This document shows positions 15,268 to 33,117 of a stretch of DNA of 64,000 nt, piece by piece. The stretch's first letter is position 1. Each line of letters begins with the position of its first letter. The stretch is from Pseudomonadota bacterium (GTDB taxonomy: Bacteria; Pseudomonadota; Gammaproteobacteria; Xanthomonadales; SZUA-38). The translations under genes were made by a program, and so were the position numbers. The DNA lies in contig JBCCCR010000001.1 in the NCBI GenBank assembly GCA_039033415.1, forward strand, positions 62,001-126,000, read 5' to 3'. Below the pieces are notes generated by a model. The model saw nothing but the letters and a program-made list of their open reading frames with translations. It searched no databases and had not been told where the DNA came from.

Positions 15268-16296
15268 ATGGAATTCGAATTACGCCAGCGAGGCCGATCA
15301 GCGATCGATTTCGCCGCCGATATGGGCGCGATGGGCATGAAGCTGAGCGCAGCGGTAGGGGCGAAGATCGCGGACGTTGAGCTGCCGGAGGATTTCGACG
15401 AGCAGCTGGCCATCATGGAGCAGCACCTGGGGGACGACCCTCAGCAGCAATACCTGATGGCGATGGGGGAATGGTCCGCAACTACACATGGTGAAATCAC
15501 CTTCGACGCGTTCAAGGAAATTCAGCAGGAGCTGGAGCCCGACTTTAAGAGGCTGCGTGAAGGTGGGACTCAGATCGAAACCCGCCCTGGCTTCGAGCCG
15601 CCAGATTACTGGGTGGGCGTAGACTTTCATCGCACCACCGGGGGCTGGGTCCGCGAGCATCAGGGGTTTGTCCACGGCGAGCTGATTCACCCGAAGTACG
15701 TGGCCAAGAATTTCCCGGGTGGCATCTTCAAGCAGCGGCGTGATGTGCTGAACGAACTCGGCGACCGGCAGTTCAACAACATTCTGGAGATGGGCACCTC
15801 GAGCGGGCACTTTACGGTGGCGCTGGCCGAAGCGTTTCCGGACGCCAAGCTAACCGGTGTCGAGCCCGGGCTTCCGATGCTGGAACAGGCTCAGCGGTTC
15901 GGCAACGAGCGTGGCGCCAGCTGGCGCCTGATCCAGGCGTGTGCAGAAGACACGGGCTTGCCCGATGCGAGCTTCGATCTTGTGACCTCTTACATCTTGC
16001 TGCATGAACTCCCGGCTCGCGCCACGCGGGCGGTGTTTGCCGAGGCTTTCCGGCTGCTTGAGCCTGGCGGCATGATGTTTATGAGCGACGTCCAGCCTTT
16101 CCGTGCGATGCCGCGTATCGCCCAATGGCGGGCAAACGCCGGCGCGTTGCGAGGCGGCGAGCCCTACTGGCGCGAGGCGGCGAGCCTGGATCTGGCGGCG
16201 CTGGCCACCGAGCTTGGGTTTGTCGATGCCCGCTCTTACGGTCTCGGCGAGCGCCAGTACCCGTGGGTCACCATCGCTCGCAAGCCGGCGGCCTGA
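15268..16296 (+). CDS. Class I SAM-dependent methyltransferase (copy 1 of 3)
   Basis: A 342-residue protein with a Rossmann methyltransferase core from about residue 170: motif I ILEMGTSSGHFTVALAE, the acidic end of strand 2 (LTGVEPG), the post-II region CAEDTGLPDASFDLVTSYILLHEL, and motif III FRLLEPGGMMF. The N-terminal 150 residues are family-specific, including YWVGVDFHRTTGG, which corresponds to IDIHCMPGGY and VDIHLQPGGY in the two paralogues at 23534 and 32008. GGAG lies seven bases before the ATG. It is followed at two bases by the small partner gene and then by a flavoprotein. Acceptor substrate unknown. Confidence 0.9.
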   Translation: MEFELRQRGRSAIDFAADMGAMGMKLSAAVGAKIADVELPEDFDEQLAIMEQHLGDDPQQQYLMAMGEWSATTHGEITFDAFKEIQQELEPDFKRLREGGTQIETRPGFEPPDYWVGVDFHRTTGGWVREHQGFVHGELIHPKYVAKNFPGGIFKQRRDVLNELGDRQFNNILEMGTSSGHFTVALAEAFPDAKLTGVEPGLPMLEQAQRFGNERGASWRLIQACAEDTGLPDASFDLVTSYILLHELPARATRAVFAEAFRLLEPGGMMFMSDVQPFRAMPRIAQWRANAGALRGGEPYWREAASLDLAALATELGFVDARSYGLGERQYPWVTIARKPAA

Positions 16297-16298
16297 TC

Positions 16299-16535
16299 GT
16301 GTCCTCCCAGCCGGTGGACAAAGCGACGTTCCAGGTGGTGCTCAACCTGATGCACGAACTCTGGGTGGTTAAGGACCGGGCGGCGGTGCTCGAGCAGGCG
16401 CTGGCAGAAGCCGGCGTGGATGTGGCGGACAAGGTCGATCGCCTGCAGCCCGACGCGGCGCTGGCGGAGCGCCTTGACGAAGAGCGCAAGGCTTTCATTT
16501 CCCGAGTTCTGGCGCCGACGCTGGGCGCCGAATAG
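16299..16535 (+). CDS. Small helical partner protein of the methyltransferase (copy 1)
   Basis: The GTG at 16299, two bases after the methyltransferase stop, gives 78 residues. The segment VVLNLMHELWVVKDRAAVLEQAL aligns by eye with MIMVLASEVSVLRDRLDTFERL and LVLSLASELSVTRDRLDALERL of the small proteins at 23193 and 31670. All continue with an acidic stretch and a closing amphipathic helix (EERKAFISRVLAP here). This copy lacks the RPxxxDDPA N-terminal segment of the other two. It is probably all-alpha and dimeric or a binding partner of the adjacent enzyme. No family recognised. Confidence 0.75.
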   Translation: MSSQPVDKATFQVVLNLMHELWVVKDRAAVLEQALAEAGVDVADKVDRLQPDAALAERLDEERKAFISRVLAPTLGAE

Positions 16536-16538
16536 CCG

Positions 16539-17942
16539 ATGTCGATCCTGTCTGTGAGCGAAGCGGAGTTTGGCTTCGAGGTGCCGGTGGTGATTATCGG
16601 CGCCGGCGGGTGTGGCCTTTCCGCTGCGCTGGCGGCGGCTCAATGCGGCGTCGAAACGCTGGTGCTTGAACGCGATCCAACCCCCTTGGGAACCACCGCT
16701 ATGTCCACGGGCCTGATCCCGGCCGCCGGCAGCGCGCTGCAGCAGGCTGCTGGGATCAGCGATAGTCCCGAACTGTTTACGGACGACGTCATGAAAAAGA
16801 CCCGGGGTGAGACCGACGAGGGCGTGGTCCGCGCGTTGGCGGAGGCGTCCGCTCGCACCGTGGACTGGCTCCATGAGTCGGGCGTTCCGCTGTCGCTCGT
16901 CGACAGCTTTCTCTACCCCGGACACAGCGTGAAACGAATGCACGGCACCCCCAATCGAACCGGCGCTGAGCTGATGGGGGCCCTTCAGCAGGCCGCTGAG
17001 GATGCGGGCGCCGGTATCCTGACCCAAGCGCAGGTCACCCACGTGTTCGCAGACGACACAAAGACCGTCCGCGGCGTTCGCTGCCAGCGCCCTGACGGCA
17101 GCACCGAAGACGTTGGCTGCGAGTCGCTGATCCTCGCGTGCTGCGGCTTTGCCGGCGACCCGGAAAAAGTGGCGCAGTACATGCCGGAAATTGCTGAAGG
17201 CGTGTTTTTTGGTCATCCGGGCAACAAAGGTGACGCCATCGACTGGGGCCAGCAGCTCGGCGCTGCGGTAGCCGACATGTCAGCGTACCAGGGGCACGGG
17301 GGGCTGGCGGACGGCCATGCAATCCCGATCTTGTGGCCCGTCATCATGGAAGGCGGGTTTCAGGTCAACCGGGAGGGCCGACGGTTTTCCAACGAGTCGC
17401 GCGGCTATTCCGAACAGGCCGTGGACGTGCTGCGTCAGCCCGGGCATGTGGCCTACACCATCTTCGATCATCGGCTGCACGAGCTGATGGAGGAATTCGA
17501 CGACTATCGCGATGCGCTGAAGGCTAAAGCGGTGCGCACAGCGCCGACGCTGGCGGCGCTGGCGGAGCTGATTGGGATCGATGCGGTGGGGCTCGTCGAG
17601 ACCGCCGCTTCGGTGGCCCAACTGACCGAAGCGGGTGAGCCCGACGAATTCGGGCGGGTTTTTGCGTCGCGGCCGGCGCTGACCGGTCCGTTTTACGCGG
17701 TACGCGTCACCGGCGCGCTGTTCCACACCCAGGGTGGCCTGGTGGTGGATGAGAACGCGCGCGTGCTGGATGAGGCCGGCACACCGCTGCCCAACCTATT
17801 TGCCGGGGGTGGCGCCGCCCGGGGCATCTCCGGCCCCTCTTGCTGGGGTTATATGGCCGGCAACGGTCTACTCACCGCAACAACTCTGGGTCGCCTGGCC
17901 GGGGAAACCGCCGCGGCCCAGGCGTCTGTCGAGGCTGCTTAA
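16539..17942 (+). CDS. FAD-dependent oxidoreductase (fumarate reductase/KstD-like flavoprotein)
   Basis: A 467-residue flavoprotein of the FAD_binding_2 family, as in fumarate reductase, tricarballylate dehydrogenase and 3-ketosteroid dehydrogenase. It shows VVIIGAGGCGLSAALAAAQCG at the N-terminus, GTTAMSTGLIPAAG, LILACCGFAGDPE, INREGRRFSNES-like VNREGRRFSNESRG, and the C-terminal NLFAGGGAARGISG with GYMAGNGLLTAT contacting FAD. There is no signal peptide, so it is cytoplasmic. It starts three bases after the small partner gene, in one operon with the methyltransferase. A second flavoprotein of another family sits in the same place in copy 2 of the unit. Confidence 0.88.
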   Translation: MSILSVSEAEFGFEVPVVIIGAGGCGLSAALAAAQCGVETLVLERDPTPLGTTAMSTGLIPAAGSALQQAAGISDSPELFTDDVMKKTRGETDEGVVRALAEASARTVDWLHESGVPLSLVDSFLYPGHSVKRMHGTPNRTGAELMGALQQAAEDAGAGILTQAQVTHVFADDTKTVRGVRCQRPDGSTEDVGCESLILACCGFAGDPEKVAQYMPEIAEGVFFGHPGNKGDAIDWGQQLGAAVADMSAYQGHGGLADGHAIPILWPVIMEGGFQVNREGRRFSNESRGYSEQAVDVLRQPGHVAYTIFDHRLHELMEEFDDYRDALKAKAVRTAPTLAALAELIGIDAVGLVETAASVAQLTEAGEPDEFGRVFASRPALTGPFYAVRVTGALFHTQGGLVVDENARVLDEAGTPLPNLFAGGGAARGISGPSCWGYMAGNGLLTATTLGRLAGETAAAQASVEAA

Positions 17943-17949
17943 GCCAAGA

Positions 17950-20454
17950 TTAGTCCGTCCCAGCAGCCGCGCTCTGCTCCGCCGCCTCTTGCGGCACAAG
18001 CTCCGCGCCGGTGGCGTCGGCGTACTGCCGGAGGATGGTGTTCGGCAGCTCGCTGTTGTCCCAGGTCACGTCCTTGGGTGGCCGCACCCCAACCCGCATG
18101 ATGACCATGTTGTGGCGGGGGATGTGGTAACTCACCTGGTGCCCATTGCCGTCGTAGAGAAACAGATCTTTATCCAGATACGGTTCGGAGTGCAGCGTGT
18201 GGCCGAAAGGAACGTCGGGATTCGCCGCGCCGCGATTCTGGATGTAGGGCCCTGCGACGTACATGCCCATGCCGGTATGGGGGTTATAGTCGGTGGCCGC
18301 GGTGATCTCATCGATGAATCCTTCCGGCAGCAGACGCTGGCCGTTCCAGACGCCGTCGTTCATCACGAGCACCGACAGGCGAAGGTAAGACTCCGCCGGC
18401 AGGAGGGCGCAGCATCCCGAGTGGGTAATGCCGTTTTCGCGGTTGACCCAGATCTCGCCACCGGCAGCGCCCAGTGGCTCCAGCACGGCCTCGGACACCC
18501 ACTGCTCGTAGCGTCGTCCGGTGCTGCGCTCGATGAACGGCGCGATGACCTCGCTGTTGGCGTTGGAGTAGTCGTAGCGTGTCCCCGGCGGATGGGTCAG
18601 CGGGTACTCATGGAGAATGACCTCAATATGGTACGGATGCAGATAAGCCCGATTGAGAAAGTGATCCGGCTCCATCGAATTGCCCTGCCGGGCAAGTCCA
18701 GAGCGCATCTGCAGCAGGTGGCGCAGCGTCATGGCTGACTTGTCGCTGTCTTTCCATTCGTAGAAAACCTCGTCAACCGGCTGATCCAGCGACGGGATAA
18801 ACCCTTCCTGAAGCGCCCGGCCTACCGCCATGATGGTGATGGGTTTGGCCAGCGAACGGGATACCACCAGCGTTTCGGGATTGGCGCCGTTGAAGTAGTT
18901 TTCGTAGACAACCTCCCCTTCGTGCCAGATCAAAATGGCGCTAGAGTTGTTTCCGGCACCGAACGCGTCGAGCCAGCCGCGAGTGTCCGAATCCAGCCAC
19001 GGCGTCGGTTCAGCGGCGCGGGGCAGGGGCACGACCTCGTTGGCGCCCGGCAGTGGAATCAGCGAGTCGTAGCCCGCCAGTCCTCGACCGGCCTGCGCTT
19101 CCTCGAGCAGTCGGCTGAAGCGCCGGTCGTAAGCCTCGTCCCCGGCGCCGGCGTCAAACTGGCGTTTGGCCTCCGAGATGCGAGTGTCGATCAGCCCTCG
19201 CAGCAGACTGTTCACGATCATCGAATCGTCGTACGTCAGATCCACTTCGCCGCCGCGTGCCACCACCAGGCTGGCAGAGGGCACCACGTACACGCGCTGC
19301 CCGCCAAAGCCGTCGAAATAGACAACGTCCGGCGCAAGGTAGGGCGCCTCATGGGGAACGGTGGTCTGGGTCGTGGGGCCATACCGTCGCTGCGCTTGCC
19401 ACTTCTGGCCACGCCAGATGTGCATACCGTACGCGGCGTTTAGGTCGCTGGCGCTTGTCAGCATCGCAACCGATTCAGGCTTCAGGATCGTCGTATCCCC
19501 GATGGTGCCGTTATTCAGCAGCAGCAGACCCACGCGCAGCCAGTCAGCGAGTCCTGCCTCCAGTCCGGAGAAAAAGCGCGGGCTGCCGCCTGGCGCTTCA
19601 ATCCAGAGTGCGGCCGCGGAGTTGCCCAACGGCAGCCAAAGCCGCTCAGCAAGGTACTCAGCGTAGCGTTTTCCTCGGTCGGCCAGCGCCTGCTCCAACG
19701 CAAGCCCCACAAGCTGGCTATTCACGTTGTTGTAGTTGAATTCGGTACCGGCGGGCTTGTCCTGAGGGTAGCTCAGGGCCGTGGCGCTGATCTTCGAGGA
19801 AAGGGCCAGGTTGGCCCCCTTCGGGTTGCCGCTCGTAAACGAGTAGTGGGCTATGCCGCTGGTGTGGTTCAGAAATTGCCGCAGCGTAGTGGCGCCCCGA
19901 GGATCGTCGGACCACTCTTCCACATACTTTCCGATCGGATCGTCGAAGCTGTCGATGATCCCGTCTTCCACCGCCGCGGCGATGGTCATGGCCAGCACAC
20001 TCTTGTGCATTGAGAAGGTAGAGAAGCGCTGGCTGGGGCTGAAGCCATCGGCAAAATCGTCGGCGACCAGCTTGCCGTCATGCCACACCAGCAGGCCCAG
20101 CCCGTTGTGCTCGCGATGGTAGGCGATGGCGGCTTCCAAAGCCTCCGGGGCGACAAACGCGCCGGGTTCGCCGGGGCTGCGGGGTTCGTCGGCGCCTTGG
20201 ACTGGCTCGCGAGATTCCCGCCACGAAAGCTCGGTGACGCCCGGGCGACTCTGCATGGCGGCCATGTGTTTCAGCAGGGTCGGATCCTGTTCTGGTGTTT
20301 CGCCGGCCGGGCTCTCGGCGGCCGCCGCCGCACCGCCGTCTGCGGGCTCAGACGCCTGTTCGGCGCAGCCAGCAAGTATCCAGACCAGGGCAGCAGCCAG
20401 CGGGAGCGCCGCCCGACTGCGCGTTGAACGCACGTCGACTGTCGGTTTCAGCAT
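17950..20454 (-). CDS. Lipoprotein with two fused serine beta-lactamase-family domains
   Basis: The product is 834 residues from ATG 20454, which places a lipobox (LAGC, Cys30) at the proper distance; an ATG at 20490 that overlaps the upstream stop is possible. Domain 1 (about 100-425) has SxxK as SMHK (Ser148, Lys151) and YxN as Tyr241-Asn-Asn243. Domain 2 (about 490-815) has SLAK (Ser534, Lys537) and Tyr629-Ser-Asn631. Both look catalytically competent. Family members are class C beta-lactamases, D-peptidases and esterases such as 6-aminohexanoate-dimer hydrolase; an esterase or amidase role at the outer membrane is inferred. It is coupled to the hydrolase gene upstream. Confidence 0.88.
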   Translation of the reverse strand: MLKPTVDVRSTRSRAALPLAAALVWILAGCAEQASEPADGGAAAAAESPAGETPEQDPTLLKHMAAMQSRPGVTELSWRESREPVQGADEPRSPGEPGAFVAPEALEAAIAYHREHNGLGLLVWHDGKLVADDFADGFSPSQRFSTFSMHKSVLAMTIAAAVEDGIIDSFDDPIGKYVEEWSDDPRGATTLRQFLNHTSGIAHYSFTSGNPKGANLALSSKISATALSYPQDKPAGTEFNYNNVNSQLVGLALEQALADRGKRYAEYLAERLWLPLGNSAAALWIEAPGGSPRFFSGLEAGLADWLRVGLLLLNNGTIGDTTILKPESVAMLTSASDLNAAYGMHIWRGQKWQAQRRYGPTTQTTVPHEAPYLAPDVVYFDGFGGQRVYVVPSASLVVARGGEVDLTYDDSMIVNSLLRGLIDTRISEAKRQFDAGAGDEAYDRRFSRLLEEAQAGRGLAGYDSLIPLPGANEVVPLPRAAEPTPWLDSDTRGWLDAFGAGNNSSAILIWHEGEVVYENYFNGANPETLVVSRSLAKPITIMAVGRALQEGFIPSLDQPVDEVFYEWKDSDKSAMTLRHLLQMRSGLARQGNSMEPDHFLNRAYLHPYHIEVILHEYPLTHPPGTRYDYSNANSEVIAPFIERSTGRRYEQWVSEAVLEPLGAAGGEIWVNRENGITHSGCCALLPAESYLRLSVLVMNDGVWNGQRLLPEGFIDEITAATDYNPHTGMGMYVAGPYIQNRGAANPDVPFGHTLHSEPYLDKDLFLYDGNGHQVSYHIPRHNMVIMRVGVRPPKDVTWDNSELPNTILRQYADATGAELVPQEAAEQSAAAGTD

Positions 20455-20486
20455 GGTGTACTCTTTCTGATTAGCAATGGGGAATG

Positions 20487-21455
20487 TCATCGTTTTTCGA
20501 GGCTTGCCAGTACCGTTGAGCCGGTGCTCAGCGGGTCGCTGCAGACGGCGAGCGGTTGCGCGGTATAAGCGGCAAGGAAGCGCTGGCTCACGGCGAGCGC
20601 CTCGTCGAACTGGGGTCTTTGATCGGGCGCTTCCCGATCCAGGCGACCAAAGACGTTACCGAAGTAGTGGTCGACGCCTTCACCCGCCCAGAGCCACTGA
20701 TCGCCCGCCGGCGCCTGCCGGTAGGCGGCAGCGTGAGCTCGCCAGTCGTCAATGAAGCCCGGCAGGATGTCGCTGGTGCCGGTCAGCAGCAGCTGGGGCC
20801 GGGAAAGCTGGTCCCACGCGTCGGGCTCGATGAACCCCGGCAGCAGGCCCGGCGGCGAGAAGGCCAGCACCGCCTTTACCCCCGGTTCTACCCGTCCAGG
20901 CTCATCGCCCACCGCCGCGGCGCCGGCGGCAACCTGCGCGCCGAAGGCACCGTAAGAGTGCCCGGCGGCAATTTTTTCAGCGCTCAGGCTGACGCCGCTG
21001 CCGAGCGCCTCAAGCAGCTCAGGCGGCCCCTTCAGCAGCCGGGCAAAGTCCTCCTTCCGGGTCCGCCACACCTGGTCGGGCGGTGGCGGCGGGTCGGTGG
21101 CGATCAGCTCCGAGTCAATATGCAGCGGCGCTGCAACCACAAACCCCATCGCGGCCAGCGGGCCGAGCAATGCGTCGTAACGTTCGGGGGCGGCGTACGC
21201 CCCGTGCGAAAATACCATGATGGGGTAGCTGCCGGCTCGCTCGGGCTGCCAGAGCGTAAAGCGAGCTTTGCGACCATCCGCATGAGTCAGGGTGAGCTCG
21301 GCGCTGCTAACCGGCAGCGCCGTCGGGCTGCAGTCTGGCACGGTTGCGCAAGCGCTTAGCAGGACGGCGGCGATGCCCGTCAGCCAAACAAACGCGAGGC
21401 TGCGGCTAGAGCGGTTGGCTGATGTCCGGTTCACGGGGTGCACGCTGGTCTCCAC
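20487..21455 (-). CDS. Lipoprotein alpha/beta hydrolase
   Basis: The protein has 322 residues from GTG 21455. The signal region ends in lipobox LSAC (Cys36). The fold is recognisable from IMVFSHGAYAAPERYDALLG (oxyanion-hole strand), the nucleophile elbow AAGHSYGAFG (Ser167) and VLAFSPPG. It is akin to PAF-acetylhydrolase/dienelactone hydrolase-like lipases or esterases. Operator candidate B is centred 70 bases upstream. It forms an operon with the double beta-lactamase-domain lipoprotein, so two surface hydrolases are made together. Confidence 0.85.
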   Translation of the reverse strand: METSVHPVNRTSANRSSRSLAFVWLTGIAAVLLSACATVPDCSPTALPVSSAELTLTHADGRKARFTLWQPERAGSYPIMVFSHGAYAAPERYDALLGPLAAMGFVVAAPLHIDSELIATDPPPPPDQVWRTRKEDFARLLKGPPELLEALGSGVSLSAEKIAAGHSYGAFGAQVAAGAAAVGDEPGRVEPGVKAVLAFSPPGLLPGFIEPDAWDQLSRPQLLLTGTSDILPGFIDDWRAHAAAYRQAPAGDQWLWAGEGVDHYFGNVFGRLDREAPDQRPQFDEALAVSQRFLAAYTAQPLAVCSDPLSTGSTVLASLEKR

Positions 21456-21532: not shown

Positions 21533-21564
21533 CAAATCGAACAGCCCCGTTCGATCAGCAACGG

Positions 21565-23196
21565 TCAGTTGTCCTCTGTCACCGCCGTCGGAAACTCCAG
21601 TGCGCCTGGGTTCATGAGGTTTTGCGGGTCGAACTGGCGCTTTAGCGTCTGCAGCAGGTCTGTGGCGCCCGGTTCCCGCGTCGACATAAACGGGTAGGAC
21701 TTGCCGAGCTGATAGTGGGTTGCACCATGCGCCTGCATCAGCGCAATCATCTGTTTCTTCATCGAGCGAACAAACGCCCGCGCCGCAGGCTGCGCTGGAT
21801 AAACCGGCAGCTTCTGGCGGTGATCGTCGGGTACAAGGTCGCGGTGAGCAGCGTGTTGACTGTCCTGCCAGTAAAACGTTGGCTCATAGACAAAGCCAGT
21901 GCTGCTGACCGTGACAAACATCGTGGCGATGTGGACCCGATGTTCCGCCATCTCGGCCGCGCGCTGCTCATAGAGCGCTGAGAGCGCTTGATGGAACGGC
22001 TGAACCTGACTGAACGGCAGGACGCAGTGCATCGGCAGCCACCGTTCGCCCTTCGGCCCCAGGACCGGCGTAAACGGACGAAACGGCATCGCGCGCAGCG
22101 CCAGCGCCAGGGTGTTGGCAACCTCCACCCCGCCTTGCCCGACAGTCTGCCGAATCGAGTCGAGCTTGAAGCGCGCTTCACCGGCTGAACGCCCTTCCGT
22201 GATGTAGTTGACGAGGTAGCCTGGGGCTTTGAGCGCCGAGCGCCCTCGGAAGGCGGCCGTCAAGACGGCTCGAAGGCCTGACCACACGCCGGGCGAGCTG
22301 CGAAATATGGCCTTGGCCGCGCCGAGGGCCGCGCTGCTGTCGATGGATCCAAGCTGTCCCTGCTGCAGCTGCGGGTCGATCGCCATGATTTCGCTGGCCA
22401 GGTTTTCGCGGGCCGCCTCCATCATGGCACGCGCCATGTCGGCAAACTCGGGGTAGACAAAACAGCTCCCCTCGACGTGCGTGGGGCGCCGGATCAGACG
22501 CAGCGTCGCTTCCAGCTTCACGCCAAACGCGCCAGAGTCGCCGGTGAACAGCCCGGTCAGGTCGGGCCCGCAGGTGCGGTAAAACCGACTGGGTGTGGTG
22601 CCTGTATCGATGATTTCGCCCCGGCCGGTGATGACCTTCATGCCTGTCACGACGCTGTTCGAAGCATCGTAAAGCCCGGAGCCGAGGCTGATTGCATGCT
22701 GCGAGAGCGCGCCGCCGACGGTGGATTTGAGGCCCGAGTACGGGCCCCAGAAGGGTGTCCGAAGCCCGCGTTCGGCGAGCGCATCGTCCAGCACCTTCCA
22801 GGTGACGCCAGGCTCGACCGTCACCGTCATATCCTCTTCGTCGATCGCGATGATGCGATCCAGCGCCGTGCAGTCGAGCACCACCGCGTGCGTAGTCGCG
22901 GGAACGTGTGCTTGCGTGTAAGAGGCGCCGCCGCCGCGTGCGTTGATCGCCAGGCCTTCAGCCAGACAACGCTCGACGGCCTGCGCCGCCTGCTCCACGG
23001 TGGTCGGACGCAGGACGGCAACGGGGAGTTCGAGCGGCCCAAGAATGTCGGTGCCAAAAACGGTCAGCGTTGCGGGGTTGGTGAGCACCCGGTCATCGCC
23101 GAGCAGCAGGCGCAGCTCGCTGAGGGTTTCGGCGACCTGATTGTCGTCGGCGGTATCGTGCGTTATCGCCGAGCTGACCGGGTCAGCGACGCTCAA
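21565..23196 (-). CDS. FAD-linked oxidase (VAO/PCMH superfamily)
   Basis: A 543-residue protein. The PCMH FAD domain covers about residues 50-235 (VAVLRPTTVEQAAQAVERCL, NARGGGASYTQAHV, WGPYSGLKSTVGGALSQHA, GDSGAFGVKLEATLRLI), followed by a cap domain and the C-terminal SYPFMSTREPGATDLLQTLKRQFDPQNLMNPG, typical of the GlcD and 4-cresol-dehydrogenase branches. These enzymes oxidise hydroxy acids, alcohols or para-substituted phenols. The start is TTG 23196, overlapping the stop of the small partner gene, so translation is coupled. It is the flavoprotein of the second methyltransferase unit and is unrelated in fold to the one at 16539. Confidence 0.88.
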   Translation of the reverse strand: MSVADPVSSAITHDTADDNQVAETLSELRLLLGDDRVLTNPATLTVFGTDILGPLELPVAVLRPTTVEQAAQAVERCLAEGLAINARGGGASYTQAHVPATTHAVVLDCTALDRIIAIDEEDMTVTVEPGVTWKVLDDALAERGLRTPFWGPYSGLKSTVGGALSQHAISLGSGLYDASNSVVTGMKVITGRGEIIDTGTTPSRFYRTCGPDLTGLFTGDSGAFGVKLEATLRLIRRPTHVEGSCFVYPEFADMARAMMEAARENLASEIMAIDPQLQQGQLGSIDSSAALGAAKAIFRSSPGVWSGLRAVLTAAFRGRSALKAPGYLVNYITEGRSAGEARFKLDSIRQTVGQGGVEVANTLALALRAMPFRPFTPVLGPKGERWLPMHCVLPFSQVQPFHQALSALYEQRAAEMAEHRVHIATMFVTVSSTGFVYEPTFYWQDSQHAAHRDLVPDDHRQKLPVYPAQPAARAFVRSMKKQMIALMQAHGATHYQLGKSYPFMSTREPGATDLLQTLKRQFDPQNLMNPGALEFPTAVTEDN

Positions 23197-23537
23197 TTTT
23201 CTTCGGTGTCCTTCAGGACCGCCTGATAGCGCTGGGAGTTATCCACTTCGGAAACTTCCTGAGCTCGCTTGTTGGCCACAAAGTAAAGGCGCTGGAAAAA
23301 CTCCTGGCGCGCTGCCTCTCGCTCGTTCAAGCAGGCCTCGTCGGGCTCGAAGGCTTCAACCTCCTCTCGGCTGGGTCCTGCGCCTGCGGCGCTCAGCCTT
23401 TCGAAGGTGTCCAGCCGATCTCGCAGCACGCTGACCTCGCTGGCGAGCACCATGATCATTGACATCGCCTGGTCCATCGCCGGGTCATCATAAAACTGGG
23501 GGCGGGCGCCCTTGGGATAGCGTCGCATGCCGCTCAT
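23193..23537 (-). CDS. Small helical partner protein of the methyltransferase (copy 2)
   Basis: A 114-residue protein with an N-terminal segment KGARPQFYDDPAMDQAM, then a helix MIMVLASEVSVLRDRLDTFERL, then EAFEPDEACLNEREAARQEFFQRLYFVA. The copy at 31670 matches throughout (KGLRPRYFDDPATDHLL, LVLSLASELSVTRDRLDALERL, SAFHPDEAAAGERRESREAFMARLM). The paired DDPA, LASE and RDRL blocks mark a small family. It overlaps the methyltransferase stop (ATGA) and the oxidase start, so stoichiometric production of all three is likely. No known domain recognised. Confidence 0.82.
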   Translation of the reverse strand: MSGMRRYPKGARPQFYDDPAMDQAMSMIMVLASEVSVLRDRLDTFERLSAAGAGPSREEVEAFEPDEACLNEREAARQEFFQRLYFVANKRAQEVSEVDNSQRYQAVLKDTEEN

Positions 23538-24751
23538 GCGTCTGCCTGCTTGTGGCCGATCAGCACTTCCCAGCCGCCGCCCGGCGCGAACTCGCCGGCC
23601 TCGAAGTCGCGGTCGGCCACCTCACTGGCCGCCTCTTCGCTGTAGCCTTCCGCGTGGGCTGCGGCAAACTCGAGTACCGCCATAGGCGCCGTATCGAAGC
23701 GCACCTGCTCCTGGTCGAAGCCGGCGTCGACGGCGAGCTGTATCTGATCCATGTCTCGCATCGGGCCCCAGAAGGGCTCGTTGTTGTAGTGCGTCTCGTT
23801 ATCCAGGATGAACTCCGAGAAGAGGTCGCTGTGGTCGAAGGGCGGCAGGTCGGCATGGATCATGAGACCGCCTGGCTTCAGCAGGCGGTAGCACTCTTTG
23901 AAAATGGCGGGCATCGCCTTGCTGGAGGTTTCGTGCAGCAGGATATGGCTGACGATCAGATCGAAGCTGCCGGGATCAAAGCCGGTGTCCGCGGCGTCGC
24001 GCTGCTGAAAGCTCACGTCCAGGCCCATGCCGCCGGCCCGTGCGTGGGCGTACTGTACCTGGGGTCCGGCCACGTCGATGCCGATGACCTCAGCGTCGGG
24101 GAAGTATTCTTTGTAGGGCAGGGTGGAGTGACCCACGGTGCATCCCATGTCCAGGATCCGGGTGGGCTTAAAGTCCGGCATGTTGCGGGTAATGTAGTTG
24201 CACACCGACCGCCCCATGTCGTCGTTGGTGGGCCCCACGTACCCCATCGCGTAAAGATAGACGCCACGGTCGTAGAGAGCGGCTGTGCTGATGTCGTTAT
24301 CGGCGGCGCGGCCGGCGTAGCCGCCGGGCATGCAGTGGATATCGATACCCGTGACGTAGCGCGGTACCTCCAGCTCCGGATCCACCACTAGCGGCGCAGT
24401 GTTTTTTTCTGACAGCTGCGTCGCCGTTTCGTTGAGCGCCGGCTGCTGCCGCTCGATGCTGGTCAGCACCGACTCCCACAGCAGCTCTTGGGCGCACCGG
24501 TTGGTGCTGGCGTAAGTCTGGAAGTAGGGGTCTGTCACCATAAACTTACGAACTTCCCGGCGGTCCTTGGGTTCCCGTCCGTGCTCGTCAACAAACTTCT
24601 TCTGCTGGCGCTGGAATACGGGCGCCAAACCCGGAAGAAGCTGGCCCTGGACAAACTGCCTCAAGCTCTTGGAAAACTCCTGGCGGGCCTTTTCATCGTG
24701 GCTGGCTTCCGGCAGCGCGGGATGGGGTTGTTGCTGGAAGATATTAAGCAT
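23534..24751 (-). CDS. Class I SAM-dependent methyltransferase (copy 2 of 3)
   Basis: A 405-residue protein. Its N-terminal helical region includes LPGLAPVFQRQQKKFVDEHGREP, mirrored in copy 3 by KPAFVERHGREP. The family signature YVTGIDIHCMPGGY sits near residue 150. The Rossmann core has motif I ILDMGCTVGHSTLPY, IGIDVAGPQV, FDPGSFDLIVSHILLHETSS and CYRLLKPGGLMIHAD. GGAG precedes the ATG. Operator candidate C is centred 77 bases upstream and is shared with the divergent DUF1838 gene. The methyl acceptor is unknown; association with a flavoprotein oxidase hints at a small-molecule substrate. Confidence 0.92.
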   Translation of the reverse strand: MLNIFQQQPHPALPEASHDEKARQEFSKSLRQFVQGQLLPGLAPVFQRQQKKFVDEHGREPKDRREVRKFMVTDPYFQTYASTNRCAQELLWESVLTSIERQQPALNETATQLSEKNTAPLVVDPELEVPRYVTGIDIHCMPGGYAGRAADNDISTAALYDRGVYLYAMGYVGPTNDDMGRSVCNYITRNMPDFKPTRILDMGCTVGHSTLPYKEYFPDAEVIGIDVAGPQVQYAHARAGGMGLDVSFQQRDAADTGFDPGSFDLIVSHILLHETSSKAMPAIFKECYRLLKPGGLMIHADLPPFDHSDLFSEFILDNETHYNNEPFWGPMRDMDQIQLAVDAGFDQEQVRFDTAPMAVLEFAAAHAEGYSEEAASEVADRDFEAGEFAPGGGWEVLIGHKQADA

Positions 24752-24909: not shown

Positions 24910-25914
24910 GTGAGCAAACCCAACGAATCTGAAACGAATTTTGACCGGCGCCACTTCCTGGGCGCGGGCATGATCGCCGGCGGCGCGCTGCTCGGTGGTT
25001 CGGCCCTCGGCCTGAAGCCGGCGTCGGCGGCACCGTCGATCGGCGGCCCCAAGTTTGACGAGCGGCTCGGCCCAAAGTATCGCGATCCCGAGTGGAATCG
25101 CGATGCCTATGCCCGCCTTGCCGGTCACATGGACTTTAAATCCCAGAAGCACGGCTGGTACAGCGGTGTGGTCCACGGCGTGGTCGACGGTGAGGCGATC
25201 CGTCCGCTGATGGGTTTTGAAGGCTACTCCGCCGCCCGGCTGATCGACAACGGCGACGGCACCTACCAGAAGCTGCTGCGGGAGACCGTCTTTTACACGG
25301 ACCTGGCAACGGGCGATGTCCTGGAGGAATACACCAACCCATACACGGACGAGACGGTGAAGGTTGTTCCCGTAGCCAACGACCCGTTCAATCACCTGAT
25401 CCGGACAGTCTTTTTCCAGCCGCCGGACTACGGCGGCCTCAACAAGGAAAAGCGGCCGGACATCCCGTTCATCCTGCCCTGGAAGCTCACTGAATCCAAC
25501 ACGGTGACGCTGGCATCAGATATCCATCTGTTCTACCCGTCAGCGCTACAGCCCGACAAGTGGCCTCGCGAGTCGTCCGGCAAGATGAACCGGGTTTCGG
25601 AGATGTTCCGGTACGTGATTCGTCGGGAGGACCTGGAAGACGAGAGCGTCCAGTCGGTCAATTACTCTGGCAGCTGGGGACGTATCACCCCCTGGCTTCC
25701 CTGGATGCTGATGGGCCAAACGCCGGGCCACATTTACTACCAGGGCACCATGGGTGGCTTCAGCAGCCACGACATGGTCTCACCGAAGGTGATGGCCTAC
25801 GGTAAGAAGCACTTTCCGAAGTACTTCAACGCCCCCGACAAGTGGGAAGACCCAAGCCTGTCCAGCCTGGAAAACTACGCCCGGGAGCAAACGCCCGCGC
25901 CGGTGAAAGGCTAG
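24910..25914 (+). CDS. Tat-exported DUF1838 family protein
   Basis: The GTG at 24910 is chosen because AGGAG sits nine bases upstream; this gives 334 residues. The N-terminus carries a twin-arginine signal (NFDRRHFLGAGMIAGGALLG, cleavage near ASA), so the protein is exported folded. The remainder, for example GHMDFKSQKHGWYSGVVHGVVDG, FYTDLATGDVLEEYTNPYT and TPWLPWMLMGQTPGHIYYQG, matches DUF1838, a family of unknown function often found near TonB receptors in catabolic regions. It is divergent from the second methyltransferase unit and upstream of an aldehyde dehydrogenase. Confidence 0.82.
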   Translation: MSKPNESETNFDRRHFLGAGMIAGGALLGGSALGLKPASAAPSIGGPKFDERLGPKYRDPEWNRDAYARLAGHMDFKSQKHGWYSGVVHGVVDGEAIRPLMGFEGYSAARLIDNGDGTYQKLLRETVFYTDLATGDVLEEYTNPYTDETVKVVPVANDPFNHLIRTVFFQPPDYGGLNKEKRPDIPFILPWKLTESNTVTLASDIHLFYPSALQPDKWPRESSGKMNRVSEMFRYVIRREDLEDESVQSVNYSGSWGRITPWLPWMLMGQTPGHIYYQGTMGGFSSHDMVSPKVMAYGKKHFPKYFNAPDKWEDPSLSSLENYAREQTPAPVKG

Positions 25915-26039: not shown

Positions 26040-27557
26040 ATGGATCCCATCTCCCCCGCCACCATCGAGGCGGTCCGGGCGTTTGCCGCCGGACCCCATC
26101 AGCTTTTCATTGACGGTCGATGGGTCGATCCCATCGAGGCAGGGCAACCGGCCCCGCTGATCGAAACGCTGGATCCATCGTCCGCAAAGCGACTCGGCGC
26201 AGTCCCCGCGGCTGGAGAACCCGACATTGATCGAGCCGTGGCGGCGGCGCGCCGGTGCTTTGAGGAAAACTGGTCGCAGCGCGATGCGCGAGCTCGAAGC
26301 ACCGCCTTGCGCAAGATGGCTGAGCTGGTGGATGGGCAGCGGGATTTTCTGGCCTGTCTGGAAACCATGGACATCGGTACACCGGTTGCTCTGACCGGCG
26401 GCCAGATGGTGGACAGCTGGATCGATGCACTCGAGTACTTTGCCGGAGCCCCGAGCCGGATCGCGGGCGAAACGCTGTCGGCCCCGGGAAGCTGGCGCTT
26501 CACCGGCCGCGAAAGCCAGATCTACACGCTGAAAGAGCCGCTGGGTGTCGTTGGGGCCATCCTGCCCTGGAACGCACCGGGTTCCTTTTTTATCAACAAG
26601 GTTGCGCCCGCGCTGGCCGCCGGCTGCACCATGGTTATCAAGCCGGCAGAGCAGGCGCCGCTGACGGCGCTCTATCTCGCGCAGCTTTTCGAAGAGGCAG
26701 GGCTGCCGCCCGGCGCCATCAACGTGGTCACCGGTGACGGTGCGGCGGCCGGCCAATCGCTGGCCCGACATCCAGACGTCGACAAGATTACCTTTACCGG
26801 GTCAACCGCCGTCGGTCAGAGCATCATGCGTGACGGCGCTGACAGTCTGAAACGTTTGACGCGAAAGCTGGGCGGGAAATCCGCTTTTGTGGTGATGAGC
26901 GACGCGGATATGGACAGCGCAATCCAGTTTCTGGTGATGATGGGTGTTTTCAGCGCCGGGCAGTTCTGCATGTGTCCATCCCGCGTATTCGTAGAGAAGT
27001 CCATCATCGACCGATTCAACGAGAAACTCGCCACGGCGATGGGCTCAGTCAACATCGGCAGCGCGCTGGATCACCATACCCAGATGGGGCCGCTGATCAC
27101 GCGGCAGCAGCGCTCGCGGGTGACCGCGCTCGTGGACGGGGCGCGCCAGGAGGGGGCCGAGGTGCTGCTGGGCGGTCATGAGATCGATACCGGTGGGTTT
27201 CACTATCATCCGACGCTGTTGTTCAACCCGGACACCCAGCTGGAGATCGCGCGCGAAGAGGTGTTTGGCCCGGTACTGTTGTCGGTGCCGTTTGATGAGA
27301 ACGACCTCGAGAGCCTCATCGGCCTGGCCAACGAAACCCACTACGGGCTGGCGGCCAGCGTGTGGACCAACAACCTCAAGCTGGCCAGCACGATGGTGCG
27401 ACGGTTTCAGGCCGGGATTGTCGGGATCAACTCCCACGGCTTTGTCGATCCGCGCGCCCCGTTTGGCGGCGTCAAACACTCCGGCCTCGGGCGGGAGTTT
27501 GGTGTCGAGGGCCTGGAGTCTTTCCTGGAGACCAAGACGGTTACCGCGTTTTATTAG
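26040..27557 (+). CDS. Aldehyde dehydrogenase-family protein with Glu-to-Lys at the general-base position
   Basis: A 505-residue NAD(P)-dependent aldehyde dehydrogenase fold: substrate/cofactor segment GAILPWNAPGSFFINKVAPALAAG, MVIKPAEQAPLTA, FTGSTAVGQ, catalytic GQFC (Cys310) and PFGGVKHSGLGREFG near the C-terminus. The conserved L-E-L-G-G-K motif reads RKLGGKS, with Lys276 (codon AAG at 26865-26867). Its distance to Cys310 is 34 residues, exactly that between Glu268 and Cys302 in the classical enzymes. Loss of the general base may reduce hydrolytic turnover or favour another acyl acceptor. The gene ends at the edge of a hairpin array. Confidence 0.9.
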   Translation: MDPISPATIEAVRAFAAGPHQLFIDGRWVDPIEAGQPAPLIETLDPSSAKRLGAVPAAGEPDIDRAVAAARRCFEENWSQRDARARSTALRKMAELVDGQRDFLACLETMDIGTPVALTGGQMVDSWIDALEYFAGAPSRIAGETLSAPGSWRFTGRESQIYTLKEPLGVVGAILPWNAPGSFFINKVAPALAAGCTMVIKPAEQAPLTALYLAQLFEEAGLPPGAINVVTGDGAAAGQSLARHPDVDKITFTGSTAVGQSIMRDGADSLKRLTRKLGGKSAFVVMSDADMDSAIQFLVMMGVFSAGQFCMCPSRVFVEKSIIDRFNEKLATAMGSVNIGSALDHHTQMGPLITRQQRSRVTALVDGARQEGAEVLLGGHEIDTGGFHYHPTLLFNPDTQLEIAREEVFGPVLLSVPFDENDLESLIGLANETHYGLAASVWTNNLKLASTMVRRFQAGIVGINSHGFVDPRAPFGGVKHSGLGREFGVEGLESFLETKTVTAFY

Positions 27558-27720
27558 CAGCGTGTCGAAAAACGCAGTTTTCGGCGCGCTGCAACCGGCA
27601 CAGGGATGTGCCGGCATTTTCGATGGCTTTAAGCCATTGAAAATGTGAGCCAGGTGAAAATCACATTTTTCACTTGGCGTCGTTAAAAAAGCCACGGATG
27701 GCTTTTTTAGCAGCCTGCTA
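27557..27720. repeat. Array of six consecutive inverted repeats between convergent genes
   Basis: The whole gap between the convergent aldehyde dehydrogenase and MFS stops is built of hairpins. They are: a 15-base stem 27557-27571/27578-27592 (two G-T pairs); CCGGCACA/TGTGCCGG 27595-27614; an arm pair 27615-27645 around ATGGCTTTAAGCCAT; GCCAGGTGAAAA against TTTTCACTTGGC at 27649-27678; TAAAAAAGCCA-CGGA-TGGCTTTTTTA 27684-27709, which reads as a bidirectional intrinsic terminator; and TAGCAG-C-CTGCTA 27708-27720. The outer ends (TTAGCAGCGTG and, on the other strand, CTAGCAGGCTG) are imperfect terminal inverted repeats, as in a MITE-like element. Confidence 0.7.
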
Positions 27721-28950
27721 GTCGGTTGCCGGCTCGAACTTCGGGTAGCTCCCAAGGGTCAGCAGCAGCAGCGCGCCGCTGCCAAACAGGCCGGCGCAGA
27801 TCTGCATCACCAGGTTGTAGCTGCCCTGAATATCAAACAGGTAGCCAAAGAACGCGGGCGCCAGGCCGGCGGACACGGCAAAACCGATGTAGGGAACGGT
27901 GTAGATTTTGGCGTAGTGTCGCAGGCCGAAATAGCGACCGACCAGAAAGGCGATCAGGTCGAACTCTGCACCCGCAGCAAAGCCGATCAACACAACGGCT
28001 ACGGTCACCAGCGGGACCGACAGTTCTGGCTGCAGCAAGATTATTGCCGACAGTACGGGGGCTGCCTGAACCACCGCCGCCACGCCAGGCGCCCAGAATC
28101 GATCGATGCAATAGCCGACCACCACGCGTCCGGCGATGACCGCAACGCCGATCAGTCCGACAATGCCGGCGGCCTGGCTGCGCTCCATCGACGCGTCCAT
28201 CAAGAGCGGCACAAGATTGGGAATGGAGCCGCCGATGGCTCCCGACAGCAGAAAAAACGACGCAAAAATCACCCAAAGGCGCCAGTCGCGAATCGCCTCC
28301 GCGACGGTCACGCCGGTGAGCGCGGAGCCCGCTGACTCGCCGTCAGCTTTTGCGCTGTGGCTCCCGGGTGGTTCCTTCAGCAGCAGATAGACGAGCGGAA
28401 TCGCCAGAAGAGGGATAAGCGCCAGACCCAGATAGGCGGTCCGCCAGTCGTAGCGGTCGAGGATGGCGGCCACGTAATTGGGTGCGGTAAGGGCGGCAAA
28501 GCCGGTGCCCGCAAGCGCCAGGCCCAGGGCCAGACCGCGCTGGCGATCGAACCAACCGCTGATCGCTTTGGTCCAGGTAATCGGTGTTGTGCCGGCACCG
28601 AGAAGCGAGATGACGGCGGCAGAGATGTAGTATGTGATCAGAGAACGGGTCAGATAAGCGAGGCAGAGATACCCGATGACGGTACCGATCAGTGACCCCA
28701 GGACCACCCGGCGAACGCTGTACTTGTCGGTAAGCCAACCAATGACCGGAACCGCGAGTATGCCGGTGATGCTGAACACGGTGAACATGCCCTGCACCTC
28801 AGCGCGAGTCCACTCAAATTCAGCGCCTAGCGGCTGGATAAAAAGCCCCAGCGTGTAAAACGGGATACCGGTAATACCTGCGCCAATGCCAATTCCGCAG
28901 GCCAACACGATCGTCCAGTTGCGGCGTACTTCAGACGGGGATTGAGACAC
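27718..28950 (-). CDS. MFS transporter (monocarboxylate/oxalate-formate antiporter-like)
   Basis: A 410-residue carrier with twelve hydrophobic segments. The N-terminal WTIVLACGIGIGAGITGIPFYTLGLFIQPLGAEFEWTRAEVQGMF and the loop GWLTDKYSVRRVVLG are typical of the MCT/OFA branch, which moves small carboxylates. Operator candidate D is centred 81 bases upstream of its start. The stop codon coincides with the last bases of the hairpin array. An organic-acid substrate or product of the block is the likely cargo. Confidence 0.87.
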   Translation of the reverse strand: MSQSPSEVRRNWTIVLACGIGIGAGITGIPFYTLGLFIQPLGAEFEWTRAEVQGMFTVFSITGILAVPVIGWLTDKYSVRRVVLGSLIGTVIGYLCLAYLTRSLITYYISAAVISLLGAGTTPITWTKAISGWFDRQRGLALGLALAGTGFAALTAPNYVAAILDRYDWRTAYLGLALIPLLAIPLVYLLLKEPPGSHSAKADGESAGSALTGVTVAEAIRDWRLWVIFASFFLLSGAIGGSIPNLVPLLMDASMERSQAAGIVGLIGVAVIAGRVVVGYCIDRFWAPGVAAVVQAAPVLSAIILLQPELSVPLVTVAVVLIGFAAGAEFDLIAFLVGRYFGLRHYAKIYTVPYIGFAVSAGLAPAFFGYLFDIQGSYNLVMQICAGLFGSGALLLLTLGSYPKFEPATD

Positions 28951-29023
28951 GTTGGACCCTTTCTTCTCGGCGAGCAGCGGCCAAGCTTCTTACATCACCG
29001 CCCAGATCGCCAGTCTCGAATCT

Positions 29024-29038
29024 CGATAGCAGCTGTCG
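29024..29038. promoter_or_regulatory. Operator candidate D
   Basis: CGATAGCAGCTGTCG is the closest of the four sites to the ideal palindrome, with a single mismatch. It is centred 81 bases upstream of the MFS start at 28950. The flanking GAATTTGG resembles the AAATTG flank of sites A and C. Confidence 0.6.
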
Positions 29039-29134
29039 AATTTGGGTGTCTTGCGGTGCTGGTTGCACCCTTCGGTGTCCCAGCAAGGCGTGTCATCAGC
29101 CGTCGGTGTTGAGGTCGGGCCCTGGCCCGGTCGC

Positions 29135-31324: not shown

Positions 31325-31378
31325 GCGTAAAAATCCTTCCTCCCAGCGGGCGGCGCCTGCAGCCCGGCTGGACGTCAC

Positions 31379-31669
31379 AACTTTCGTTACAACTTAAGGT
31401 GGGTACGTTGACTTAAACGCGCCGACACCTCTCCCAATGTGTGTGTTCTACGCCGGCGGGGAGAATTGATCTGTGACCAATTTCTCAATTCCGATGAGCG
31501 GTAGTAAATGGCCGCTCGTCGGCCGGTCCATGGCCCGCGCTGGGGGGTGTCAATCGGGTCTGCCCTCCCGATCAACTTCTGGCGTAGCAGAAGAGTGTTC
31601 GGCGAAAGGCGTCAGACCTTTAGCGGGCTGCGGTCGAATCACCGCCACACGGTGGGGCGAACCCATTGA
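31379..31669. other. Intergenic stretch without a recognisable gene
   Basis: About 290 bases lie between the DUF1631 gene and the third small partner gene. It holds only short open frames and a modest CACCG/CGGTG inverted repeat near 31640-31655. I see neither the 15-bp operator nor a T-run terminator. It probably carries the DUF1631 promoter. Confidence 0.4.
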
Positions 31670-32008
31670 TCAGTCGAGGTTTTTGTAGACCTCGTCTTCG
31701 CTGGTCGGGTTATCGGTTCGGGCCACGCTGTCCAGGGCGGCCTCGATCGACACCATCAGCCGAGCCATGAAAGCTTCGCGGGATTCGCGTCGTTCCCCGG
31801 CTGCCGCTTCGTCAGGGTGAAACGCGCTTAGCGCGTCTCGGTCGAGCTGTCCCTGTGACGCCAGCAGGCGCTCCAGCGCGTCCAAACGGTCGCGGGTGAC
31901 CGAGAGTTCACTGGCGAGCGACAGCACCAGGCCCAGCAGATGGTCGGTAGCGGGGTCGTCAAAGTAGCGGGGCCGAAGGCCTTTGGGGCTGGTGGGGAAG
32001 GAATCCAT
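31670..32008 (-). CDS. Small helical partner protein of the methyltransferase (copy 3)
   Basis: A 112-residue protein, collinear with copy 2: KGLRPRYFDDPATDHLL, the helix LVLSLASELSVTRDRLDALERLL, an acidic linker (SAFHPDEAAAGERR) and a terminal helix (REAFMARLMVSIEAALDSV). The start overlaps the methyltransferase stop (TGATG). Here the gene is last in its operon; no flavoprotein follows, unlike copies 1 and 2. Function unknown; constant pairing suggests a subunit or chaperone of the methyltransferase. Confidence 0.82.
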   Translation of the reverse strand: MDSFPTSPKGLRPRYFDDPATDHLLGLVLSLASELSVTRDRLDALERLLASQGQLDRDALSAFHPDEAAAGERRESREAFMARLMVSIEAALDSVARTDNPTSEDEVYKNLD

Positions 32009-33117
32009 CAGGCCTGCCCCAGCAGAATCGGCCAGGCCAGTGGCCGTTCGGTATAGTTTCGCTGAGCTTTGCTGAAGCCGCCGTCGTTGGCCGTCAGTTT
32101 CACGCGCTCAGGCGAAAAGCCGCCGGCAACCGCTCGCGAGGGCAGATCGATGTGCGTGATGCGCCGAGCGAAGTACTCGTTGTTGTTGTAGGTCTCCCAG
32201 GTCGACATGTACTGATCGAAAGGACCAACGCCGCGCGGAATCTCCATGTGCAGCATGTATCCACCCGGCCTCAGCAGCCGGCGGCACTCGGCCATGATGT
32301 TGTCGATGGCCGGTCTGGATGTCTCGTGCAGCATGATGTGCGAGACGATCAGGTCAAAATGCTGATCAGGAAAGCGGGTCGCCTCGGCGTTGCGCTGTCG
32401 AAAGTGCACCCGCTGCCCCTTCTCCTCAGCGCGCAGATGGCCGTAGCGTAGACAGGGTGCGGCAACGTCGATCGCAAACACCTCCGCATCCGGGAAAGAC
32501 TCTGCCCACGGCAGCGTGCTGTTGCCCACCGCACAGCCCATGTCCAGGATCCGCTGAGGCTTCAGGTCCGGGATCTCCTGTTTGGCTGCGTCGATGAGCA
32601 TGTGGCCGAGGCGATCGCTGTCGGGCCCCAGCGCGCCGCCGATATAAATAGGCAGGCTGGTTTCGTAGAGAACGCCGGCCGTGACGTCGTCGGGACACGT
32701 ATCGCTGTGATAGCCGCCCGGCTGGAGATGAATATCCACGGTGCTGTGGTAGGCCGGGATCTCAAGCTTAGGGTCAAGCTCCAGGCTGCCGCCGGCCTCG
32801 CCGGGCACGGCGCGGAAGTTTGCCACCAGCGCATCACGCTGGCGCAACGCCGGGGCCGCAATCGACTCCCACATCATCTCCTGACTGCGTCGCTGCAGGG
32901 CGCTCCAGAGCCGATAGCCCGGGTCCGGATCCATGATCGATTTCACCTCATCAATCGATTCGGGTTCTCGGCCATGGCGTTCGACGAAGGCTGGCTTCAG
33001 CTGCTGCTCGTAGATGCGAGCCGTCGCCGGCTGGATCGCTCGCGCCAGGTGTGAGCGAAAAGCGCTGACAAAATCCTGGCGAGCCTGCTCATCGTGGGTT
33101 GTTTTCGGTTGGTACAA
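32008..33117 (-). CDS. Class I SAM-dependent methyltransferase (copy 3 of 3)
   Basis: A 369-residue protein that starts with TTG at 33117 behind a good GGGAG. It shares with copy 2 the N-terminal DEQARQDFVSAFRSHL and KPAFVERHGREP blocks, the signature VDIHLQPGGY, motif I ILDMGCAVGNSTLPW, FAIDVAAP, FPDQHFDLIVSHIMLHETS and CRRLLRPGGYMLHME. It lies 15 bases after the spinster-type MFS gene and so is probably transcribed with it from the promoter region divergent to the TonB receptor. Confidence 0.92.
   Translation of the reverse strand: MYQPKTTHDEQARQDFVSAFRSHLARAIQPATARIYEQQLKPAFVERHGREPESIDEVKSIMDPDPGYRLWSALQRRSQEMMWESIAAPALRQRDALVANFRAVPGEAGGSLELDPKLEIPAYHSTVDIHLQPGGYHSDTCPDDVTAGVLYETSLPIYIGGALGPDSDRLGHMLIDAAKQEIPDLKPQRILDMGCAVGNSTLPWAESFPDAEVFAIDVAAPCLRYGHLRAEEKGQRVHFRQRNAEATRFPDQHFDLIVSHIMLHETSRPAIDNIMAECRRLLRPGGYMLHMEIPRGVGPFDQYMSTWETYNNNEYFARRITHIDLPSRAVAGGFSPERVKLTANDGGFSKAQRNYTERPLAWPILLGQA

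Follow-up and report, generated by a model that had tools for sequence, protein, structure and literature searches.

Class I methyltransferases acting on small molecules (Methyltransf_25 proteins, the solved enzyme 3bus, phosphoethanolamine methyltransferases and COMT-type enzymes) are built on a Rossmann core with motifs for S-adenosylmethionine (SAM) and carry a histidine after strand 4. In COMT-type enzymes the usual base is a histidine at one place, aided by an aspartate or glutamate, and MppJ, from the same family, binds iron (PMC10784701). The methyltransferases activated by Trm112, a protein that binds zinc, likewise combine a class I enzyme with a small partner of its own. Our window is a stretch of 64,000 nucleotides from a Pseudomonadota bacterium (contig JBCCCR010000001.1, positions 62,001 to 126,000), within which three class I methyltransferase (MT) genes, MT-A, MT-B and MT-C, each lie beside a gene for a small protein (small A, B and C; Table 1). 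These enzymes have the core, SAM motifs and histidine of the small-molecule MTs, and add an N-terminal part without a sequence match among the solved chains listed, a DIH-GG motif carrying H130, a near-invariant E314 and the separate small gene. All six genes, their motifs and their spacings were where the original prediction had put them. Its remark that no named system is known to have this pairing agrees with our searches of Pfam, NCBIfam and defence-system models, where none was matched. Literature searches on the pair, its expansion, metal-dependent class I MTs and DUF1838, limited to listings of open-licence papers, likewise turned up no account of the system. We favour, with about even confidence, the reading that each pair is a two-subunit SAM-dependent MT that methylates small molecules in catabolic clusters and has diversified by duplication.

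The window belongs to a 6.4 Mb assembly (G000; G and L handles refer to genomes and loci) that carries eleven MT and small-protein pairs; the three pairs originally described are real, and a count of three is too low. A search of this assembly with MT-C (E 1e-5) gave 13 matches, eleven being family members with a small partner and two (on C27 and C11) weak matches to the core. A profile of the eleven small proteins, in a search that includes its own training rows, finds eleven places, and the sister species G001 has thirteen small-protein matches. The small gene follows the MT in eight own-genome pairs and precedes it in pairs H, I and K. That every MT is followed by its small gene therefore holds for the three window copies but not for all eleven pairs. 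In pair K an opposite-strand regulator gene lies between the two genes, which are about 1.1 kb apart.

The pairing extends well beyond this genome. A scan of species genomes yielded 79 loci, mostly from Alpha- and Gammaproteobacteria and also from Nostoc, an Acidimicrobiia metagenome-assembled genome (MAG) and an Acidobacteria MAG. Because a single peptide pattern was used to find them and only the best 80 of the 340 candidates confirmed were kept, counts over these loci do not reflect natural frequencies. A small-protein match was present in 64/79 loci, and 74 of the 96 MTs had a same-strand small protein within 400 bases, downstream in 61 cases and upstream in 13. The two genes overlap in 33/74 pairs, by 4 bases in 27 and by 1 base in 6. 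When the search was led by the small protein, 4 of 299 genomes sampled from the phylum gave matches, one being the own genome with its eleven; the four matches outside it, in three genomes, all adjoin an MT (by its coordinates G350 is the same as G063, already reached through an MT, which means that two of these genomes are not new). Within a set of 40 relatives, strong matches in G003, G007, G013, G015, G022 and G026 lie 84-121 bases from an MT match. In total 9/9 distinct strong matches outside the genus adjoin an MT, a count that covers strong matches and leaves aside weak ones in G014 (E 0.008) and G020 (E 2.5e-5) and the 13 of G001. Small proteins found mostly away from the MT had been named beforehand as the result that would speak against the pairing, and we observed the opposite. 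The pairing is nevertheless one-sided: the small protein usually occurs with an MT, and many MTs occur without a small protein.

The small proteins of the own genome form one family, since leave-one-out profiles built from ten of the eleven recover the omitted member at E 2.6e-14 to 7.8e-23, whereas the best unrelated of 1928 open reading frames reached E 0.42 to 3.6. No model in the Pfam and NCBIfam sets that we searched represents this family. Small A has no Pfam or NCBIfam family above cut-off (Pfam DUF6276, E 0.003, falls under its gathering score), and 72 small proteins scanned singly gave scattered weak matches only, to Pfam in 1/72 and to any one NCBIfam model in at most 3/72. A profile of the family gave no sequence match to solved chains in the PDB at E up to 1. 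Three positions, E34, R41 and E46, are nearly invariant and the tails are variable; net charge is negative in 66/72, and cysteine is absent from 63/72. This scarcity of cysteine and the empty PDB search speak against a Trm112-type activator.

Searches with single sequences miss partners. On plasmids small C gave no match at E up to 0.01 and an MT search found 9 records, on at least one of which, pJE1, a protein matched by small B (33%) adjoins the MT. Two loci show variations on the pair. At L033 (about 5733-6413; also L101) one MT has two different small proteins in tandem behind it, and on the Antarctobacter plasmid pSMS3-3 (L098, 11717-13014) the gene before a distant MT relative (31.6% identical) overlaps it by 4 bases and encodes a hypothetical protein of 76 residues that may be a partner that has diverged.

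The Methyltransf_25 core spans residues 172-268 of MT-A, 199-295 of MT-B and 190-286 of MT-C, with scores of 68.6, 77.7 and 77.3 bits against a gathering score of 27. For the preceding part, roughly the first 150 residues, no sequence match to a solved chain was found; among the 60 of 82 hits shown, the matching stretches start at or after profile position 150. The first NCBIfam match of all three MTs is the corrinoid protein-associated methyltransferase CpaM (NF043040; nearly tied with BioC for MT-B), and scores of 53.7-53.9 bits against a cut-off of 180 do not support membership. Membership of the MADS anti-phage system (mad2) is rejected, as the match is confined to the MT core (109-133 of the profile's 492 positions) and the small proteins match nothing; this comparison covered the MT and small proteins, and partner genes of MADS were not looked for.

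We aligned 203 distinct MTs (median pairwise identity 32%; numbering as in MT-C), drawn from loci picked by likeness to the family and including 20 row pairs over 90% identical. Five residues, P121, H130, D255, H264 and E265, are invariant in 203/203, and position 314 is glutamate in 201 and aspartate in 2. H130 is the histidine of the DIH motif, which reads VDFHRTTGGW in MT-A, IDIHCMPGGY in MT-B and VDIHLQPGGY in MT-C. The SAM-binding residues are largely intact, with G194 in 196/203, G198 in 194/203 and D217 in 197/203 (glutamate in the other 6). Judged by sequence, the profile score, the SAM glycines and the acidic residue of strand 2 are the features of a class I SAM methyltransferase. H264 aligns with the first histidine of the LHHMP stretch of 3bus, which we take to be RebM, where this histidine is presumably catalytic. 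COMT-type entries are among the structure matches, and the conserved H264, E265 and E314 might correspond to their catalytic histidine and its Asp/Glu partners. From this pattern we infer one shared chemistry with varied acceptors across the family.

Natural in-frame MT and small-protein neighbours, read through the stop codon, gave two AlphaFold2 models with a mean pLDDT (predicted local distance difference test) of 89.8 and 84.0. In both, the MT begins with long helices, at 16-56 and 74-114 in the first model, and continues into the Rossmann core; one long helix and shorter ones make up the small protein. The best structural match of the first model, Rv2258c (Z 17.1, root-mean-square deviation 3.5, 220 aligned), is tied with many methyltransferases, and its matches lie mainly on the core.

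In a quick tree built from 107 MTs, where ownI, ownJ, ownK and L094 form four long branches, A, B and C occupy separate groups, and tree and identities together rule out a recent local triplication. Alphaproteobacterial relatives of MT-B reach 72% identity; its group holds 21 rows, in every one of which the MT is followed by a small gene. Explaining the absence of the partner takes 10 changes along the tree, 6 or more of which fall on starred branches, so the partner has been gained or lost repeatedly. Distances between MTs correlate with those between their partners (r 0.685 over 150 distinct pairs, 0/2000 permutations as high; MTs under 300 residues, small proteins under 85 and second partners of one MT dropped). 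The correlation also holds within G044 (r 0.757, 15 pairs), G056 (0.645, 19) and G065 (0.572, 15), with 0/2000 permutations as high in each.

Copy number varies widely. In 28 genomes reached through 30 loci (MT threshold E 1e-25), 21 have 1-7 MTs, G041 has 13, G064 has 14 and G058 has 22. The largest counts, with 69 candidates scored in each, are at least 69 in G044, 65 in G045, 54 in G056 and 53 in G065; these genomes are labelled as Rhodospirillaceae or Alphaproteobacteria MAGs, or as a single-cell genome. A full re-run gave 71 MT matches in G044, the largest expansion, within a 3.5 Mb genome, and 55 in G056, some being fragments. Assembly duplication does not account for the G044 copies, because among 40 of them that we fetched identity has a median of 29% and nowhere exceeds 69%. 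G044 has 36 small proteins and G056 has 29, of which 31 and 25 lie within 500 bases of an MT, 29/31 and 24/25 of these on its strand; the other 5 and 4 have no MT within 500 bases (one at 1.4 kb). One stretch of G044 (L102, G044:C10:146000-162000) holds a row of five family MTs, and none of its called genes is a small protein. A comparable expansion is described for SAR202, with up to 114 flavin monooxygenases in one genome; the authors suggest that paralogue expansions there (flavin monooxygenases, enolases) let the bacteria use a wider range of organic molecules (PMC6946804). The likeness is in dozens of diverged paralogues per genome, and the difference in enzyme family and phylum; the main text of PMC6946804 does not contain the word 'methyltransferase'.

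How might such a pair work? We propose that the large protein would combine its long helical N-terminal domain with the class I core, and that H264-E265, H130 and E314 would form one shared active site, which would deprotonate the acceptor and then methylate its O or N. The small protein may bind to the helical domain, where it would give the pocket stability or form; a role as subunit or activator fits the operon structure. Units standing in catabolic-looking clusters, beside oxidases dependent on flavin adenine dinucleotide (FAD) and hydrolases, would then duplicate, giving rise to different acceptor specificities. Methylation, the binding of the two proteins, the catabolic direction, the acceptor type and the substrate are all predicted parts of this scheme.

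Several observations weigh against it. The read-through models have a pTM (predicted template modelling score) of 0.75 and 0.80 and low-confidence linkers; with about three quarters of each chain belonging to the MT, the pTM cannot settle whether MT and small protein form an interface. Partners are often missing: 40/71 MT matches in G044 and 30/55 in G056 have no small protein within 500 bases (10 and 13 of these lie within 300 bases of another MT), and G045 holds at least 65 MTs and 8 small proteins. In the 79 loci 22 MTs were unpartnered; four of these are at contig ends or uncertain, which leaves 18/96 without a partner, contig ends not being to blame (in one of the 18, L059, the small gene is one gene further off). 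The partner is therefore not required by the whole MT family. In the own genome the correlation between MT and partner is weak (r 0.364, 19/2000 permutations as high), and co-inherited neighbours correlate without binding, so the correlations show only that pairs duplicate as units. Nor have we identified a catabolic step that needs methylation.

Table 1. The three MT and small-protein pairs of the window and their gene neighbourhood (positions within the window).
Feature	Position	Strand	Evidence
FAD_binding_3-type aromatic monooxygenase, A-B cluster	8722..9915	+	nearest solved PnpA, HspB; 54-55% identical in L034, L036, L072, L082
Arylmalonate decarboxylase / maleate isomerase superfamily protein, cluster	9915..10661	+	PF17645 E 2.6e-16; maleate isomerase structures E 1.4e-7; 44-54% in four loci
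PuuE-like (polysaccharide deacetylase family) hydrolase, cluster	10663..11571	+	TIGR03212 E 4.6e-35, under cut-off; nearest solved include PuuE; 71-75% in L034, L036, L072, L082
PAP_fibrillin-like protein, cluster	11588..12271	+	PF04755 E 1.5e-5; present in L034
GPH-type transporter	13568..14983	-	TIGR00792 E 2.6e-61, under cut-off; adjoins A-type MT in L034, L198, L199
MT-A, class I SAM methyltransferase of a divergent subclade (FHRTTGGW)	15268..16296	+	Methyltransf_25 E 7.6e-19; tree; A-type relatives in 5 other genomes
Small A, 78 residues, GTG start	16299..16535	+	2-base gap after MT-A; leave-one-out profile E 3.3e-16
Oxidoreductase following pair A, FAD_binding_2 (flavocytochrome c-like)	16539..17942	+	PF00890 E 1.8e-56; TIGR01813 just under cut-off
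Esterase-like protein, two serine beta-lactamase domains, 846 residues in one chain	17950..20490	-	PF00144, two stretches; matches in L034, L068, L082, L198, L199
Alpha/beta hydrolase (chlorophyllase / PAF-acetylhydrolase-like)	20487..21455	-	PF07224 E 6.2e-8, PF03403 E 2.6e-7; matches in L034, L043, L044, L048, L082, L200, L201
VAO-type FAD-linked oxidase (FAD_binding_4)	21565..23196	-	4-base overlap with small B; PF01565 E 1e-31; same subfamily abuts other units
Small B, 114 residues	23193..23537	-	4-base overlap with MT-B; leave-one-out profile
MT-B, class I SAM methyltransferase	23534..24751	-	Methyltransf_25 E 1.1e-21; outside-genus relatives 65-69% identical
DUF1838 protein	24910..25914	+	PF08894 E 3.5e-45; adjoins MT-B relatives in L043, L044, L048, L078
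Aldehyde dehydrogenase	26040..27557	+	NCBIfam StyD-like E 1.1e-136, under cut-off; matches in L082, L097, L200, L201
MFS transporter (start could be 28950)	27718..28908	-	matches in L043, L044, L048, L078, L097
Small C, 112 residues	31670..32008	-	1-base overlap with MT-C; leave-one-out profile
MT-C, class I SAM methyltransferase	32008..33117	-	Methyltransf_25 E 1.5e-21
MFS transporter upstream of MT-C, same strand	33133..34494	-	NCBIfam MFS models all under cut-off, best TIGR00893 E 5.6e-38

Part of the region around pairs A and B is also preserved in Thermaurantiacus, in two genomes of Caulobacter and in a MAG of the Alphaproteobacteria (L034, L036, L072 and L082), where MT-B is 67-68% identical, the VAO-type oxidase 42-45% and MT-A, where seen, 42-50%; small B is 49-56% identical in these four loci and in L068 and L078. 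An A-type MT occurs in 6/27 genome handles searched (G063 and G350 being one genome), and in 6/6 it is accompanied by a B-type MT that shares 65% identity or more with that of the window. The two are 2.5-7.3 kb apart in the 4 handles with both on one contig, and on different contigs in G049 and G060. This constant co-occurrence, closeness and shared cluster support, for A and B, the earlier suggestion of steps of one pathway; that the three local copies are a recent unit is not supported. None of the cluster loci compared yielded C, the one exception being a cross-match between MT-C and the MT of pJE1. The nearest solved relatives of the first three cluster proteins (PnpA and HspB, maleate isomerases and PuuE-type proteins) suggest a role in aromatic or N-heteroaromatic breakdown. 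The genes at 8722-12271 are a candidate ring-opening pathway.

Across 87 stretches (the 79 loci, seven own stretches and the window) the recurring neighbours are VAO-type FAD oxidases (22), TonB receptors (20), DUF1838 proteins (19), amine oxidases (10) and FAD_binding_2 enzymes (7), together with transporters and hydrolases. These families come from BLAST clustering of simple gene-caller output, in which starts and small genes are approximate and some genes are missed; the labels CaiB and HMG-CoA lyase, and hydantoinases outside pJE1, were read by eye from sequence. On pJE1 the MT and its hypothetical partner lie amid annotated TonB, MFS, MmgE/PrpD, hydantoinase A and B, semialdehyde dehydrogenase and FAD enzymes. 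The six VAO-type oxidases of the own genome closest to that of the window, this query included, lie within 15 kb of a unit in 5 cases and abut one in 3. Without the query the figures are 4/5 (P about 2e-5) and 2/5 (P about 1e-4). At L014 (7989-9441) the MT of pair I is followed by a protein with a domain binding flavin mononucleotide (FMN) and an ApbE-like protein, hinting at a flavinylated partner. A PhyH-like dioxygenase gene stands directly before the small gene at L013 (8363-9286) and L015 (10719-11660); that of L013 is Pfam-assigned, with MysH as its nearest solved relative (E 3e-25), and that of L015 clusters with it.

The conserved neighbourhood also bears on the direction of the chemistry. 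The clusters could be biosynthetic or detoxifying, the MT capping a product or a toxic compound. MTs mostly serve such roles, the transporters and esterases would fit export or resistance equally well, and the PhyH neighbour is closest to MysH, which we take to be a mycosporine enzyme. We think this unlikely, as the recurring ring-hydroxylase, maleate-isomerase-like, PuuE-like, MmgE/PrpD, hydantoinase and TonB genes point to breakdown. Methylation is unusual in catabolism, and a few MT-fold enzymes use SAM as a structural or electrostatic cofactor in a reaction other than methylation. Were the MT-like protein one of these, catalysing a cyclisation, decarboxylation or hydroxylation, the conservation of H130 and E314 beyond the usual core residues would be understandable, and the [4+2]-cyclase SpnF (4pne) does stand at rank 48 of the Foldseek list. 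Retention of the SAM motif residues in at least 194/203 MTs, and ordinary methyltransferases among the closest sequence matches of known structure, make this explanation fairly improbable.

Instead of a subunit, the small protein might be a substrate, a carrier or a regulator, which the MT methylates or which titrates the MT. Its acidic character and its three nearly invariant residues between variable tails would suit such a role, but it has no nearly invariant serine for a phosphopantetheine arm, cysteine is mostly absent as noted, and a role as substrate carrier has no positive evidence; we judge this distinctly improbable. That the small protein merely travels in the operon and serves the neighbouring oxidoreductase seems hardly credible. 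The third gene is often an FAD enzyme, and in pair K the small gene abuts a PhyH gene with the MT further off. Elsewhere, however, the MT recurs while the third gene changes (VAO, FAD_binding_2, permease, membrane protein, TonB or opposite-strand genes), and the small gene occurs on either side of the MT.

The two-subunit MT thus remains our preferred reading. A bolder form of it, which we advance tentatively and consider somewhat unlikely, is that a two-component MT with a His/His/Glu set and the near-invariant glutamate, possibly binding a metal, activates chemically diverse natural or recalcitrant organic compounds for oxidation, and has radiated to more than 50 paralogues per genome in some uncultured Alphaproteobacteria, much like the flavin monooxygenases of SAR202, so that methylation would be a catabolic entry step. 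The family stands out as an MT subfamily that keeps an invariant residue set despite hugely varied members. If its units are catabolic, they would reveal that bacteria can draw on complex natural products or on dissolved organic matter through a route based on methylation.

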